A stretch of 60,741 nt of DNA, taken from NCBI GenBank assembly GCA_018402765.1, contig JAGYIE010000006.1, forward strand, positions 1-60,741, in the 5' to 3' direction. The notes beneath the pieces were generated by a model that worked only from the letters and a program-made list of their open reading frames with translations, was not told the origin of the DNA and did no database searches. This DNA comes from Vicingaceae bacterium. GTDB lineage: Bacteria; Bacteroidota; Bacteroidia; Flavobacteriales_E; Vicingaceae. Position 1 is the stretch's first letter. The number at the start of each line of letters is the position of its first letter. A program made the translations under genes and the position numbers. Shown piece after piece: positions 53,631 to 60,741 of the stretch.

Positions 53631-54995
53631 CTATATCGTCATCGAGAACAATTGTGTCTGTGGTTTATTTCGAATTAATCGTACATCAAAAGCCATACAA
53701 ATATTTCGGATAAACGGCTTGCCTGCCTCGGTTACTTTTAAGCTCTTATCACCTAACGCTAAAAAGCCATCCTCAATTAATTCAGTTAATCTAGGGATGC
53801 ATTCATCAATAATTTCATGATAATTGTCCTCTTTAGCCCAAGACGTTTCATAGTGACACATAATATCTAAAATATGTCTTCTAATCACTAAATCTTCTTC
53901 AGTTAATTGATGACCCCGAAAGATTGGAATACGATCTTCTTCTAGAATTTTATAGTACTCTTCAACCGTTTTCACATTCTGCCCAAAAGCATACCAACTA
54001 TCACTAATAGACGATACTCCTAAGCCAATCATTAATTGTGTTTTAGAGGCAGAATACCCCATGAAGTTTCGATGTAACTCCTTGTTTTTCATCGAAACGT
54101 ACATATTGTCAGTTTCTAGTGCAAAGTGATCCATCCCGATTTCTTTATACCCTGAATCTAAAAGTAATTGATAACCAATTTCATATAATTCCCGTTTTTC
54201 GTCATCTTTTGGAAGGTCCGCTTCGTCATATCCGCGCTGTCCGTTTCCTTTAATCCATGGCACATGAGCATAGCTATAGTAGGCAATTCTATCTGGCTTT
54301 AATTCTCTAACCTTGTCAATGGTATCAATAATACTATCTTTAGTTTGATGCGGTAATCCATAAACTAAATCAAAACTGGTAGACGTGTAACCTGCTGCTC
54401 GAGTATTTTTCGTCACCTCTTTAACTACTTCAAAAGGCTGTATTCTGTTTATTGTTTTTTGAACCTTTGGATCAAAATCTTGAACTCCGTAGCTTGCTCT
54501 ATTGAAGCCTAGCTCATGCATTACCTTTAAATGTTCAATTTTTGTATTGTTGGGATGGCCTTCAAAACTATACGAATGATTTTCTGGAATTATTCCTTTG
54601 GAAGTAAGTCCTAAAATTAATTTCCTCAAGCTATTCGGACTAAAAAAGGTTGGAGTGCCACCACCAAAATGGATTTCACTAATAATCGGCGTTTCACCTA
54701 ATAGAGCTAAGTATAAATCCCACTCTTTAAGAACCGCCGTAATGTATGGGTCTTCAACTTTGTGATTTTTTGTAATTCGTTTATTACAACCACAAAACGT
54801 GCACAAGCTTTCACAAAATGGCAAATGCACATAAAGGCTAATGCCTTCTTTTGCGTTGCTTTCTTTGAATGACAGCTTAACAGAGTTTTCCCAAGCATCT
54901 TGACTTATGCCTTTATCATCCCAGTATGGGACAGTTGGATAAGAAGTGTAACGAGGTCCTGGAATGTTATATTTTGATATAAGCGATTGAGCCAT
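53631..54995 (-). CDS. hemN: Oxygen-independent coproporphyrinogen III oxidase
   Basis: Radical SAM decarboxylase converting coproporphyrinogen III to protoporphyrinogen IX without oxygen. 454 residues. IPGPRYTSYPTVPYW at the N-terminus is the true HemN signature (not the HemW relatives), and the cluster motif is C61-x3-C65-x2-C68 with C70 (CESLCTFCGC). Further HemN landmarks are HFGGGTPTF and SFEGHPN. Its product feeds HemG encoded next door. Has its own -7 element. Confidence 0.96.
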   Translation of the reverse strand: MAQSLISKYNIPGPRYTSYPTVPYWDDKGISQDAWENSVKLSFKESNAKEGISLYVHLPFCESLCTFCGCNKRITKNHKVEDPYITAVLKEWDLYLALLGETPIISEIHFGGGTPTFFSPNSLRKLILGLTSKGIIPENHSYSFEGHPNNTKIEHLKVMHELGFNRASYGVQDFDPKVQKTINRIQPFEVVKEVTKNTRAAGYTSTSFDLVYGLPHQTKDSIIDTIDKVRELKPDRIAYYSYAHVPWIKGNGQRGYDEADLPKDDEKRELYEIGYQLLLDSGYKEIGMDHFALETDNMYVSMKNKELHRNFMGYSASKTQLMIGLGVSSISDSWYAFGQNVKTVEEYYKILEEDRIPIFRGHQLTEEDLVIRRHILDIMCHYETSWAKEDNYHEIIDECIPRLTELIEDGFLALGDKSLKVTEAGKPFIRNICMAFDVRLIRNKPQTQLFSMTI

Positions 54996-55018
54996 AATAA
55001 TTCGTTGTTTTGATGCGC

Positions 55019-55026
55019 CAAATTTA
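55019..55026 (-). promoter_or_regulatory. -7 promoter element of hemN
   Basis: TAAATTTG on the minus strand, exact TAnnTTTG, 23 bases before the ATG. Confidence 0.55.
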
Positions 55027-55197
55027 CGAAGAAAGGAAGACTATGGTCGATTGATCATGAAAAGTCTTTTTTGATTTAACTTCTATTGGCAAATTGAAAC
55101 AATTTAAACGTTAGATGGATTTGTTTTTTATTCCATAAACTGCATTAGTTTTATGAAACAACGCTTATTTTCGCTTTAGACTAAGACTTGAAAAGTG

Positions 55198-55205
55198 TAA
55201 ATTTG
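55198..55205 (+). promoter_or_regulatory. -7 promoter element of icmF
   Basis: TAAATTTG, exact TAnnTTTG, 21 bases before the ATG at 55227. Confidence 0.55.
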
Positions 55206-55226
55206 CAATCTTAAAAATTTCATAGA

Positions 55227-58200
55227 ATGATAGACGCAAAACCATATACCCCAAAAAATAAAGTTAGAATTGTTACTGCAGCCTCTTTGTTTGATGGACA
55301 TGATGCAGCCATCAACGTAATGCGAAGAATTATACAAGCAACAGGCGTTGAGGTTATTCATTTAGGTCATGATAGAAGTGTTCAGGAAGTAGTAGATACT
55401 GCTATTCAGGAAGATGCAAATGCTATTGCCATGACTTCTTATCAAGGAGGTCACGTCGAGTATTTTAAATATATGCGTGATCTATTAGTAGAGAATGGAG
55501 CAGGACACATCAAGTTGTTTGGTGGTGGAGGTGGAGTAATTCTTCCTGAAGAAATCAAAGAACTACATGAGTATGGTATTGAACGCATCTATTCTCCTGA
55601 TGATGGTCGTTCTATGGGACTGCAAGGGATGATTAACGATTTGGTTGAGCGCTCTGACTATCCGACAGGAAAGGACATTACCGATGAAATAGAGCATCTA
55701 AAATCAAAAAAATCAACGGCAATAGCTCGATTAATTTCAGCAGCAGAAAACTTCCCTGAAGAAAGTAAAGAAGTGTTAGCTAAAGTTCACGAAATGGCTT
55801 CTAAGGTTAAGACACCTATTTTAGGTATTACCGGAACTGGTGGAGCTGGAAAATCTTCTTTAGTAGATGAATTGGTTCGTCGTTTTTTATTAGACTTTGA
55901 AAATAAAACGATTGCGATTGTATCGGTGGATCCATCTAAAAGAAAAACCGGAGGAGCATTATTAGGCGATAGAATTCGAATGAATGCCATTAAAAATGAT
56001 CGTGTGTACATGCGCTCTTTGGCTACCCGTCAGTCGAATTTAGCTTTATCTAAATATGTTGCTGAAGCAGTTTCTATTTTAAAGGCTGCTGAATACGATT
56101 TAATAATTCTTGAAACGTCTGGTATTGGTCAGTCAGACACTGAGATAACAGACCACTCTGATGTGAGTTTGTATGTAATGACACCCGAGTTTGGAGCAGC
56201 TACTCAATTGGAAAAGATTGATATGTTGGATTTTGCGGATTTAGTTTCTATTAATAAATTTGATAAACGTGGTGCACTAGATGCATTGAGAGACGTAAAA
56301 AAACAATTCAGACGCAATCACTTGTTATGGGAAGCAGACGATAAGGATATTCCTGTTTTTGGAACCATTGCTTCTCAATTTAATGATCCTGGGATGAACC
56401 AATTGTACCGATCAGTAATGCATAAAATTGACGAGGTAACGACTGCAGGTCTTAAATCAAATTTGGCAATTACTGATGAAATGTCCGAGAAGATTTTTAT
56501 TATTCCTCCAAGCCGTGTTCGTTATTTGTCAGAAATTTCTGAGAACAATAGAAGCTACGATAAATGGGTAGAAGAGCAAGCAAATGTAGCAGAACAACTT
56601 TATGGTTTGTACAATTCTATTGAAACGATTAAAAACTCTTCTATGGACGATAAAGATCGTTTAGTGAAAGGTTTACAAGAGTCGTTTGAAACCGTAAAAT
56701 TGGAGTTAGACCCTAAAAATTGGCTGTTGCTGGAAGAGTGGGAAGCAAAAAAAGATAAATATAAGCAACCAATCTTCTCTTTTAAAGTAAGAGATAAGGA
56801 GCTGAAAATAAAAACACACACAACATCATTGTCCCAGTCTGAGATACCGAAAGTGGCCTTGCCAAAGTACCGTTCTTGGGGGGATATTTTGAAATGGAAC
56901 TTACAAGAAAACGTTCCCGGAGAGTTTCCATACACTGCAGGTTTGTTTCCATTTAAGCGAGAGGGAGAAGACCCTACGAGAATGTTTGCAGGCGAAGGGG
57001 GCCCTGAAAGAACTAACAGAAGGTTTCATTATGTGTCTCTTTCTATGCCGGCAAAGCGTTTATCAACTGCATTTGATTCGGTAACCTTGTACGGAAATGA
57101 TCCGGCTTATCGTCCTGATATTTATGGAAAAATTGGAAATGCTGGTGTTTCTATTTGCTGCTTGGATGATGCTAAGAAGTTGTACTCTGGGTTTAATTTA
57201 TCAGATCCGATGACCTCTGTTTCTATGACCATTAATGGGCCTGCTCCGATGCTGTTAGGCTTCTTTATGAATGCAGCAATTGATCAGCAATGCGAATTTT
57301 ACATCAAAGAAAATGGTTTAGAAAAGGAAATTGAAGCAAAAATTGCTAAAATTTATAAAGACAAAGGGACTGCTAGGCCAAAATATCAGGGAGAATTGCC
57401 TGAAGGTAACGACGGTCTAGGTTTAATGCTACTTGGGGTTACAGGAGATCAAGTATTGCCTGCGGATGTATATGCAGAGATTAAAAAGTCAACTTTAACC
57501 AAAGTTAGAGGTACAGTTCAAGCGGATATTTTAAAAGAGGATCAGGCACAAAATACCTGCATATTCTCTACGGAATTTGCTTTGCGATTAATGGGTGATG
57601 TACAAGATTATTTCATTCGAGAGAATGTTCGTAATTTCTATTCAGTTTCTATTTCAGGATATCATATCGCAGAAGCTGGAGCAAATCCAATTACTCAACT
57701 GGCCTTTACAATTGCCAATGGGTTTACGTATGTAGAATACTATTTAAGCCGAGGAATGGACATCAATAAATTCGGTCCAAACTTATCCTTTTTCTTCTCT
57801 AATGGAATTGATCCTGAGTATGCCGTAATTGGTCGTGTTGCACGGAGAATTTGGAGTAAGGCATTGAAAAATAAATATGGAGCGAATGCTAGAGCGCAAA
57901 TGTTGAAGTATCATATTCAGACTTCAGGTCGGTCATTGCATGCTCAGGAGATTGATTTTAATGATATTAGAACAACATTACAAGCACTTTATGCGATTTA
58001 TGACAACTGTAATTCATTGCATACCAATGCATATGATGAGGCGATTACAACGCCTACAGAAGAAAGTGTAAGAAGAGCTATGGCGATACAGTTAATTATT
58101 AATCGTGAGTTAGGACTTGCTAAAAATGAGAATCCACTTCAAGGATCTTTTATCATCGAAGAGTTAACTGACTTGGTAGAAGAAGCTGTTCTTTTAGAGT

Positions 58201-58607
58201 TTGATCGAATTACGGAAAGAGGTGGTGTTCTTGGAGCTATGGAAACCATGTATCAGCGCAGTAAAATACAAGAAGAAAGCTTGTATTACGAGGGATTGAA
58301 GCATTCAGGTGAGTTTCCAATAATTGGCGTAAATACCTTCTTAAGTTCTAACGGATCACCCACAGTATTGCCGAGGGAAGTAATTCGTGCCACGAAAGAA
58401 GAAAAGGAATATCAGATAGAAATGCTAGAAGCTTTACAAAGTAAAAATGCGGATAGATCGGAGAAGTTGTTGCGCGAATTACAAGAAAAGGCAATTGCAA
58501 ACGAAAACCTTTTTGAGGAATTAATGGAAGTAACTAAATACTGTTCTTTAGGTCAAATAACAGCCTCACTGTTTAATGTAGGTGGTCAATATCGACGAAA
58601 TATGTAA
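55227..58607 (+). CDS. icmF: Fused isobutyryl-CoA mutase IcmF (B12 domain, MeaB-like GTPase, mutase)
   Basis: 1126-residue adenosylcobalamin enzyme that interconverts isobutyryl-CoA and n-butyryl-CoA (and related acyl-CoAs). Order: B12-binding domain about 12-140 ([24 protein letters not shown]), a MeaB-type G-protein chaperone about 190-430 with P-loop [12 protein letters not shown] near 200, a linker, and the TIM-barrel mutase from about 540 with [18 protein letters not shown] near 568. All three parts are continuous with no frameshift. The FPFKR segment is IcmF-like rather than a classic methylmalonyl-CoA mutase, but substrate preference needs biochemistry. Confidence 0.93.
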
Positions 58608-58772
58608 AGCTAAATCTATCAGTACCATTATTTTTTTTATAAGTATAAAATTTGAATAGTTAAATCATGTACCAAAGTAATTTCAAAACTGAAAATTGTT
58701 GATTTATACCAATTTTTAAGTGATTTAAATAAAAGAAGTTATTTATTAGCTTAGATAAAAAATCAATTATAA

Positions 58773-59212
58773 ATGGGAAGAATATGTTTATTGCATGCTT
58801 TCTTTTTGCTATCGTTTGGTACTTTTTTTGGATAAGAAAACATCTTCGGCAAGTGGAAAACAATAGATGAGCAAACTAGCAAGCCTCGGTCAATTTTATA
58901 GTTGTATAAAAAGGATGAGATGGATTATGGTAAAGTGTTCAAATGTTTTCTTAATTCAGGAGAATCTGAGCATCTAACTTGTATTGGTATAAGGGAAATT
59001 TATAAAATCAACCCATCATAGGGATGATTATTATAACCGATGTGGAATTTGATGAAAAAGATCAAGAGTGGGAAGGATGCGAGATTTTAGATCCGGATTC
59101 AGGGCAAACCTATGATTGCGAAATGTGGTTAGATATCGGCCAACTAAATGTTAGGGGATACCTTTCTTTATTTTTTAGAACGCAAATTTGGGTAAGAGCA
59201 ACTACTAACTAG
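58773..59212 (+). pseudogene. Decayed DUF2147 family secreted protein
   Basis: Frame 1 from ATG 58773 reads a signal peptide (MGRICLLHAFFLLSFGTFFG), TAA at 58833-58835 where Gln (CAA) would fit, then ENIFGKWKTIDEQTSKPRSI, TAG at 58899-58901 where Glu (GAG) fits, then LYKKDEMDYGKVFKC and onward to LTCIG near 58988. There the frame shifts; the next frame reads YKGNL, TAA at 59003-59005 (Lys AAA expected), NQPIIGMIIITDVEFD, EWEGCEILDPDSG, and LNVRGYLSLFFRTQIWVRA to the stop at 59210. The reconstructed protein of about 146 residues is a complete DUF2147 domain with WKTID and WLDIGQLNVRGY blocks. Only the 62-codon tail from 59024 remains as an open frame. The 3' end overlaps the convergent methyltransferase gene by 8 bases. 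Confidence 0.82.
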
Positions 59213-59819
59213 GTTGCTTTTGATAAACAGCGCTATAAATGAAGTTTTTGTAGAATAGTTTGATAGCTTGCTCCTTGAGATGAGTCTTTTCGAAAGCTTC
59301 AGCATAATTTTCAATCTTATCAGATTCTATTTTTGTAGTTATTTTCAGAAAAAAAAACATTACTTGCTCGATTAACTTTTGATAGGTTGTTTTGGGTTGC
59401 TTGAAGTCGGCAACTAACCAAACGCCTTCTGCTATTAGAAGGGTTTCTAGTGTCTCAATTATTCTGTCTCGTTTTTCAGAAGAAAATAGATCCAAAAAAA
59501 AGAAGGTAATTACAGCATCGTATTTTTTATTTGGAATTGAATGCTCATTACCGACTATAAAATTGACCAAATCATTTGGGCTGATTTTTTTAGCGTTTTC
59601 AATCATTTTTTCAGATTGATCTATAAAATCAATTTTCAGTTGCGGCTTTAGTCTATAAATTAATTTCAATACGTTGCCATTTCCACCCCCGATAAAAAGA
59701 AGATGGCCACGACTTGGTAGTTGAGCAATATATTCTGCTTGAGCATTATCTATATGTTTTCCAAAAACTATTCTTACTAAGAATTGATAATAGTTTGCAA
59801 TAGCGTTATAATTATTCAT
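59205..59819 (-). CDS. Class I SAM-dependent methyltransferase
   Basis: 204-residue cytoplasmic protein with a Rossmann methyltransferase fold: motif I LLFIGGGNGNVL (41-52, GxGxG), acidic ribose-binding IDFIDQSEKMIENAK at the second strand, and motif IV YDAVITFFFLDLF. The C-terminal third is lysine-rich and unlike known subfamilies I can name; substrate unknown. Separated from the next upstream gene by 39 bases containing a weak hairpin, so both may share a transcript. Confidence 0.82.
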   Translation of the reverse strand: MNNYNAIANYYQFLVRIVFGKHIDNAQAEYIAQLPSRGHLLFIGGGNGNVLKLIYRLKPQLKIDFIDQSEKMIENAKKISPNDLVNFIVGNEHSIPNKKYDAVITFFFLDLFSSEKRDRIIETLETLLIAEGVWLVADFKQPKTTYQKLIEQVMFFFLKITTKIESDKIENYAEAFEKTHLKEQAIKLFYKNFIYSAVYQKQPS

Positions 59820-59826
59820 AATAAAA

Positions 59827-59850
59827 TGCTCCTTTGAAAATCAAAGAGGC
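59827..59850 (-). terminator. Weak hairpin between two minus-strand genes
   Basis: CTTTGA and TCAAAG arms (59832-59846) with flanking partly paired CTC/GAGG, followed on the minus strand by ATTTTATTATG. Could be a weak terminator of the coiled-coil gene. Confidence 0.35.
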
Positions 59851-59858
59851 GAGTATAA

Positions 59859-60545
59859 TTAATTAATGCCTTGTTTTTTTGTTTTTATATTTTGTAGTTT
59901 GCTGTCGGTCTCACTAATTTTTTTATCTAATTCTTTTGCCTCTTGTTTTTTCTTCTTTAATTCTTCTGCCTTATCGCTATTTTCTTTCCTCAATTTCTCG
60001 ATTTCTTTTTTATTGTCTTCGATGTCATCAGTTAAATCCTCGATATCATCAACTAACTTCTTTTTGTCTTTTGTAAAACCGCTATAAACATCAACGGCAT
60101 TATCAAACTTTTCTTCATAATAGTTAATTAGGTATTCTTTTAAAAAGCTATTAAATATCATTCGCATACCTGCAAATGCTTTGGCATCATTCTGAGGAGT
60201 AATGTATAAGTCGTATCCTTTTCTAGCAAATAAACTCATTTGTGTTCCTTCATTTTTGTCTTCCTTGAATTTAGCATACAGGTCAATTTGCACATCTGTT
60301 ATTTCTGCTATTTTTTGAGCTTTAACTGCATAAAAATCGCCACTTCGCTTTAGTTTGATTCCGTGATTACTCTTTAAGTATTTCTGAAATGCCTTACGAG
60401 TATCTTTCGGACTAGGCGAAATGTCCGCTTCTAATGATAGTTGACTCTTTTCTTTATGATAAACTGTAGACGCTATAATGGTGTACGTTTGTGCACTCAA
60501 TACAATTGTACTTAGTGAAAATGCTAATGTTATAATTGATTTCAT
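59859..60545 (-). CDS. Secreted coiled-coil protein of unknown function
   Basis: 228 residues from the ATG at 60545 (MKSIITLAFSLSTIVLSAQ, a clear signal peptide; an in-frame ATG 15 codons upstream would bury it). The first half (about 20-150) is a compact soluble domain with no motif I recognise; the second half (about 155-225) is a highly charged coiled coil with heptad-like KKKQEAKELDKKISE and IEDLTDDIEDNKKEIEKL. No Cys for lipidation. Neighbours give no function. Upstream on the minus strand, TTG at 60588-60590 and AATATTTG at 60559-60566 form a near-consensus promoter. Confidence 0.75.
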   Translation of the reverse strand: MKSIITLAFSLSTIVLSAQTYTIIASTVYHKEKSQLSLEADISPSPKDTRKAFQKYLKSNHGIKLKRSGDFYAVKAQKIAEITDVQIDLYAKFKEDKNEGTQMSLFARKGYDLYITPQNDAKAFAGMRMIFNSFLKEYLINYYEEKFDNAVDVYSGFTKDKKKLVDDIEDLTDDIEDNKKEIEKLRKENSDKAEELKKKKQEAKELDKKISETDSKLQNIKTKKQGIN

Positions 60546-60558
60546 AAATGTGTTTTGA

Positions 60559-60590
60559 CAAATATTTGAAATTATTGGACCAAAAATCAA
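60559..60590 (-). promoter_or_regulatory. Putative promoter of the coiled-coil protein gene
   Basis: Minus strand: TTG (60588-60590) and AATATTTG (60559-60566, seven of eight versus TAnnTTTG), spacer 21 bases. Fits the start at 60545. Confidence 0.45.
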
Positions 60591-60741
60591 GGCTCTTTAT
60601 TTCAGTAGTTTAATAATTTAAATTTTTAGGAAATGTAGAAATATTTATACAAACTAGATACTTTTTCATTGTTGTCCGATTAAAATTTCGAATTGAAAAC
60701 AAGTGCTAATTATAATGATGTCCCTTGAATTTTTGTTTTTT

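Follow-up and report, generated by a model that had tools for sequence, protein, structure and literature searches.

A broken DUF2147 gene downstream of icmF in a Vicingaceae bacterium

INTRODUCTION

In PMC10600179, a DUF2147 protein of Treponema pallidum is tabled beside HP1028, a lipocalin, as a structural match; HP1028 of Helicobacter pylori is treated in PMC9570263 and PMC5956850, and DUF2147 is mentioned in PMC10057207. A profile built from the B-type DUF2147 proteins described below reaches the HP1028 structure (PDB 4INN, lipocalin fold) with an E value of 0.26, which is not significant. By analogy, one might guess that DUF2147 proteins are secreted binders of small ligands. Our literature search found nothing on the DUF2147 locus itself.

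Nearer comparisons are offered by intact B-type genes in the sister genome G001 and 13 other family genomes, which have the DUF2147 domain and the G-K-W-x-T-I-D start in common with the copy described here. These relatives are single open reading frames (ORFs) with a C-x2-C motif and a third cysteine, whereas our copy is broken: its reading spans the whole PF09917 (DUF2147) model but carries stops and a frame change. In G001, the neighbourhood of the B-type gene is also the same as that of the broken copy.

RESULTS AND DISCUSSION

In-frame stops and a frame change in the DUF2147 gene

The window, meaning the whole stretch of DNA that was analysed, is 60,741 bases long and is the complete contig C13 from a draft genome of 3.1 Mb. 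Features around the locus are collected in Table 1.

Table 1. Coordinates of features in and around the DUF2147 locus of the window
Feature	Position	Strand	Evidence
icmF, fused isobutyryl-CoA mutase/GTPase, intact	55227..58607	+	NF045497, 1768 bits (cut-off 1500); 96.8% identical to G001
165-bp spacer; G001 has a gene for a predicted 282-aa lipoprotein there	58608..58772	+	
DUF2147 pseudogene (B-type), plausible ATG to terminal TAG	58773..59212	+	PF09917, 83.7 bits; tblastn E 3e-31
In-frame stop TAA, firm	58833..58835	+	Frame of 58773
In-frame stop TAG, firm	58899..58901	+	Frame of 58773
Interval within which the frame change can be placed	58983..59009	+	Break-point scan; comparison with G047
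TAA of the downstream frame, disabling only when the frame change comes before it	59003..59005	+	Break-point scan
62-codon ORF, C-terminal tail of DUF2147, ATG start, no sign of use	59024..59212	+	
Methyltransferase gene, intact, convergent	59205..59819	-	PF08242, 36.8 bits (cut-off 30); syntenic in G001
Coiled-coil-like gene	59859-60590	-	

The original prediction of a broken DUF2147 gene at this place is borne out by two types of search. A joined reading, following the frame of 58773 and then that of 58784 with X for the stops and the broken codon, matches PF09917 with a score far over the 27 bits set as its curated cut-off (E 1.8e-23, model positions 1 to 112), and the DUF2147 protein of G001 finds both pieces by tblastn in two frames, with 44% identity across 66 residues for the N-terminal piece and 57% for the C-terminal piece. 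The C-terminal piece exceeds the PF09917 cut-off by itself (69.7 bits, E 4e-19; 69.3 bits in the genome scan), and the N-terminal piece by itself has no Pfam match at E<=1. Judged by these scores, the DUF2147-like reading is far beyond chance.

Where does the frame change lie? Across the 44-base stretch 58980-59023, the window has one base fewer than its relatives, and downstream of it the frame of 58784 carries the reading on to the TAG at 59210-59212. We slid the break-point along this stretch and scored each resulting reading against 14 intact relatives. The protein fit is almost flat for break-points from 58983 to 59007 (21.7 to 24.3) and lower beyond, while nucleotide identity favours an early break-point (26 versus 21 of 44 bases against G001, and 22 to 23 versus 19 against G047). 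Break-points from 59004 onward leave the TAA at 59003 outside the reading. The frame change predicted near 58988 is therefore present, with a place that may be anywhere between about 58983 and 59009, and the three predicted nonsense codons become two or three: two are firm, and the third is conditional on an earlier frame change. A restored signal peptide and a full domain had also been predicted; the domain is there from end to end, and the signal peptide is no more than plausible, being to the eye a hydrophobic stretch with one arginine that aligns poorly to G001. The argument that each stop is one base from a codon fitting the family carries little weight, since several common codons lie a single base change away from any stop codon. 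No terminator-like site was found within 58500-59400, and no Rfam family matches across 54900-60741.

An intact counterpart at the same place in the sister genome

An intact copy is present in G001, a sister genome of the same genus but another species (99% complete). There, icmF is followed by an ORF of 282 aa whose start resembles that of a lipoprotein (labelled LP282, the lipobox being judged by eye), an intact DUF2147 gene, and then the same two minus-strand genes as in the window. The G001 DUF2147 gene, between icmF and the methyltransferase gene, encodes 145 aa without stops and scores 113.5 bits. The remaining genome of the genus (69% complete) has no DUF2147 match. In the window, the end of the methyltransferase gene overlaps the end of the pseudogene by 8 bp. 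Relatives found by IcmF protein similarity are mostly Bacteroidota, the best at 90% over the IcmF query.

Forty ORFs from three stretches of G001 were compared with the window. Half of them match, and 19 of these 20 are open in a single frame, the DUF2147 gene alone being broken; among the open ones, one meets a stop upstream of the start of the window ORF. The 20 unmatched ORFs comprise 17 that fall past the contig end and 3 that are missing from the window, including LP282. This comparison bears directly on sequencing or assembly error, under which the gene would be intact in the organism. Although the locus does lie 1.5 kb from the contig end of a draft genome, we consider such error very unlikely: at least three lesions fall within 440 bp, against 19 of 19 other matched genes open; both genes between DUF2147 and the contig end are open; the assembly is 99.78% complete in 16 contigs; and errors would not produce the excess of missense change described next.

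Loss of constraint and age of the decay

Changes specific to the window outnumber those specific to G001 by 36:2, 29:4, 34:6, and 27:5 in DUF2147 with four outgroups, compared with 16:30, 17:30, and 17:23 in the adjacent methyltransferase and 6:5, 9:2, 8:2, and 5:1 in IcmF, which has likewise changed slightly faster on the window side. The sequence comparisons thus indicate that selective constraint on the DUF2147 remnant has been lost. Loss of function, as originally predicted, is well supported because a Pfam match, an intact syntenic copy in G001, and relaxed evolution relative to intact flanks come together; the predicted recency holds relative to the species split only.

The window copy keeps 26 of the 32 residues that are invariant in 14 intact relatives, with similar shares in the C-terminal part (18 of 22 testable) and the N-terminal part (8 of 10). 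If the frame change is early, the six changed residues include one cysteine of C-x2-C: the B-type cysteines C71, C74, and C117 (G001 numbering) are invariant in 13 aligned intact sequences, and on this reading only the second is missing from the window copy. Missense change alone is no proof of death, because the intact gene of G047 has lost a similar share, missing 7 of 39 otherwise invariant residues in a leave-one-out comparison; eight relatives miss none.

Could the 62-codon C-terminal ORF be retained as a small functional protein? It is open from its ATG and has kept most of its testable invariant residues, but the N-terminal part keeps a like share, the product would lack the domain's first half as well as the signal peptide, and no promoter-like site was found on the strand of this ORF, making such retention extremely unlikely. 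Recoding, by which stops read as amino acids and a programmed frame change would yield a full protein, could account for a whole domain being readable across the lesions, yet it requires both TAA and TAG as sense codons plus a frame change within one gene, when the other 19 matched genes terminate at ordinary stops, G001 has a plain ORF, and residues invariant among relatives are lost; we regard its probability as next to nil.

In a neutral simulation started from the G001 gene (transition bias of 2 and 36% G+C, both chosen by us), two to three stops together with six missense changes are likeliest at 0.1 substitutions per site, and roughly ten times less likely at 0.04 or 0.2. The stops and missense changes therefore agree with about 0.1 neutral substitutions per site. 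The dN/dS ratio is uninformative because synonymous sites between the window and G001 have reached saturation, both in the pseudogene and in the 19 neighbour genes; this measure was rejected, with omega meaningless and codon-model branch lengths at their ceiling. Differences between the remnant and G001 amount to 0.33, 0.23, and 0.58 at codon positions 1, 2, and 3 (120 codons). Positions 1 and 2 are less changed than position 3, indicative of long purifying selection after the species split and before the loss. In the protein tree, the branch leading to the window copy measures 0.72 changes per site when left free and 0.93 with G001 forced as sister (G001 branch, 0.06 and 0.10, respectively). 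Its length exceeds what 0.1 neutral substitutions per site would yield, which suggests that faster, relaxed evolution preceded the stops or that the age is underestimated.

Tree placement

Two of our trees place the window copy with G047 (82% and 79% support), and another places it with G047 plus the dead copy of G049 (96%). Its highest identity is to G001 (53%). Forcing G001 as sister does not make the likelihood significantly worse (AU test, P = 0.20), and in a tree without G047 the window copy joins G001 at 61%. The grouping with G047 may be long-branch attraction. Synteny favours G001 as the counterpart, and the tree is doubtful given its long branches; the pseudogene call is independent of this placement.

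DUF2147 copies elsewhere in the family and class

DUF2147 copies were sorted by us into A-type and B-type according to higher identity, and divergent copies in G032 and G033 fit neither. The window genome carries an intact A-type copy on contig C1 (123 bits), which is 34% identical to the G001 protein. This paralogue (L156, G000:C1:46000-57000) lies between a 168-aa and a 373-aa ORF, both without a Pfam match at E<=0.01. Among 46 family genomes, the A-type is found in 8, an intact B-type in 14, and both in 1 (G047). Mutual exclusion of the two types was considered and rejected, since 1 genome with both, versus 2.4 expected by chance, falls short of significance, and related genomes do not count as independent cases.

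A second B-type remnant was found in G049 (minus strand of contig C100, L153:3843-4265), with 8 stops and flanked on both sides by intact genes; in G047 the same neighbours enclose an intact B-type gene. Both remnants contain multiple stops, but that of G049 is more decayed and belongs to another genus and another neighbourhood. One TAA was flagged in the match of G022, which extends 15 bases past the ORF start used, and we take this TAA to be upstream of the gene. In a search of the class, 75 of 395 genomes matched, with no internal stop among the matches listed; of the 30 loci listed, 3 were already known. Intact DUF2147 copies are the rule, and the family has seen at least two decays, barring a single one common to both dead copies.

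Within genus g22, the B-type gene follows methylmalonyl-CoA mutase genes in 8 of the 9 genomes with an intact copy (L140-L147), directly adjoining them in five genomes and separated from them by a single ORF in the other three (Pfam check on two); the G001 gene is close to icmF. A functional link between B-type DUF2147 and B12-dependent acyl-CoA mutases is nevertheless not claimed: in the wider class, none of 27 further loci, among the matches listed, has a mutase match within 1.5 kb, and 80 named icmF loci have no DUF2147 match. In G012, G021, and G022 (L148, L149, and L151), the B-type gene follows a pair of GTPase genes, presumably era and der. Separately, four tandem near-identical ORFs of ~113 aa lie on the minus strand of G022 (L151:6881-8299), perhaps a repeat array rather than genes.

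Absence of the neighbouring lipoprotein gene

The DUF2147 locus of the window also lacks LP282, an addition to the earlier account. The G001 copy of LP282 matches no family above cut-off and has no Pfam match at E<=0.01. Strong matches to it occur in 10 of the 46 family genomes, including G001, and in all 10 the gene follows icmF in the same orientation, with ~0.7 kb separating the two in G010. The matches in G046 fall in two frames, and that copy may be broken. In the window genome, the one match is weak (24% identity, E 2.4e-4) and falls in a different gene, and no LP282 remnant was found in the 165-bp spacer, where the best of six frames reaches an E of 0.13 on the opposite strand. LP282 is thus gone from the window lineage.

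Probable course of the decay and what it means

We are highly confident that the window holds a DUF2147 pseudogene produced by ordinary decay in a lineage that lost LP282. In the order of events that we infer, the ancestor of the genus would have had icmF, LP282, DUF2147, and the convergent methyltransferase gene, as G001 still does. The window lineage would then have lost LP282 without leaving a trace, and DUF2147, by then unneeded, would have gathered nonsense codons, two at the least, together with a frame change and numerous missense changes. Its present product would be at most a short truncated peptide. A likely cause would be dispensability, perhaps by way of the intact DUF2147 paralogue elsewhere in the genome.

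A bolder possibility, improbable in our judgement, is that LP282 and the C-x2-C DUF2147 form a small envelope-side module, which disappears as a whole and is no longer needed when the other DUF2147 type is present. The idea arises because a single family genome has both types intact, and in the window genome the A-type is alive and the B-type dead.

For annotation, an ORF caller would report here a 62-aa fragment with a DUF2147 match, when a working copy is absent from this place. Beyond annotation the significance is small, this being ordinary gene loss. If the link to LP282 or to the second DUF2147 type were true, it would offer a handle on the role of the uncharacterised DUF2147 domain.
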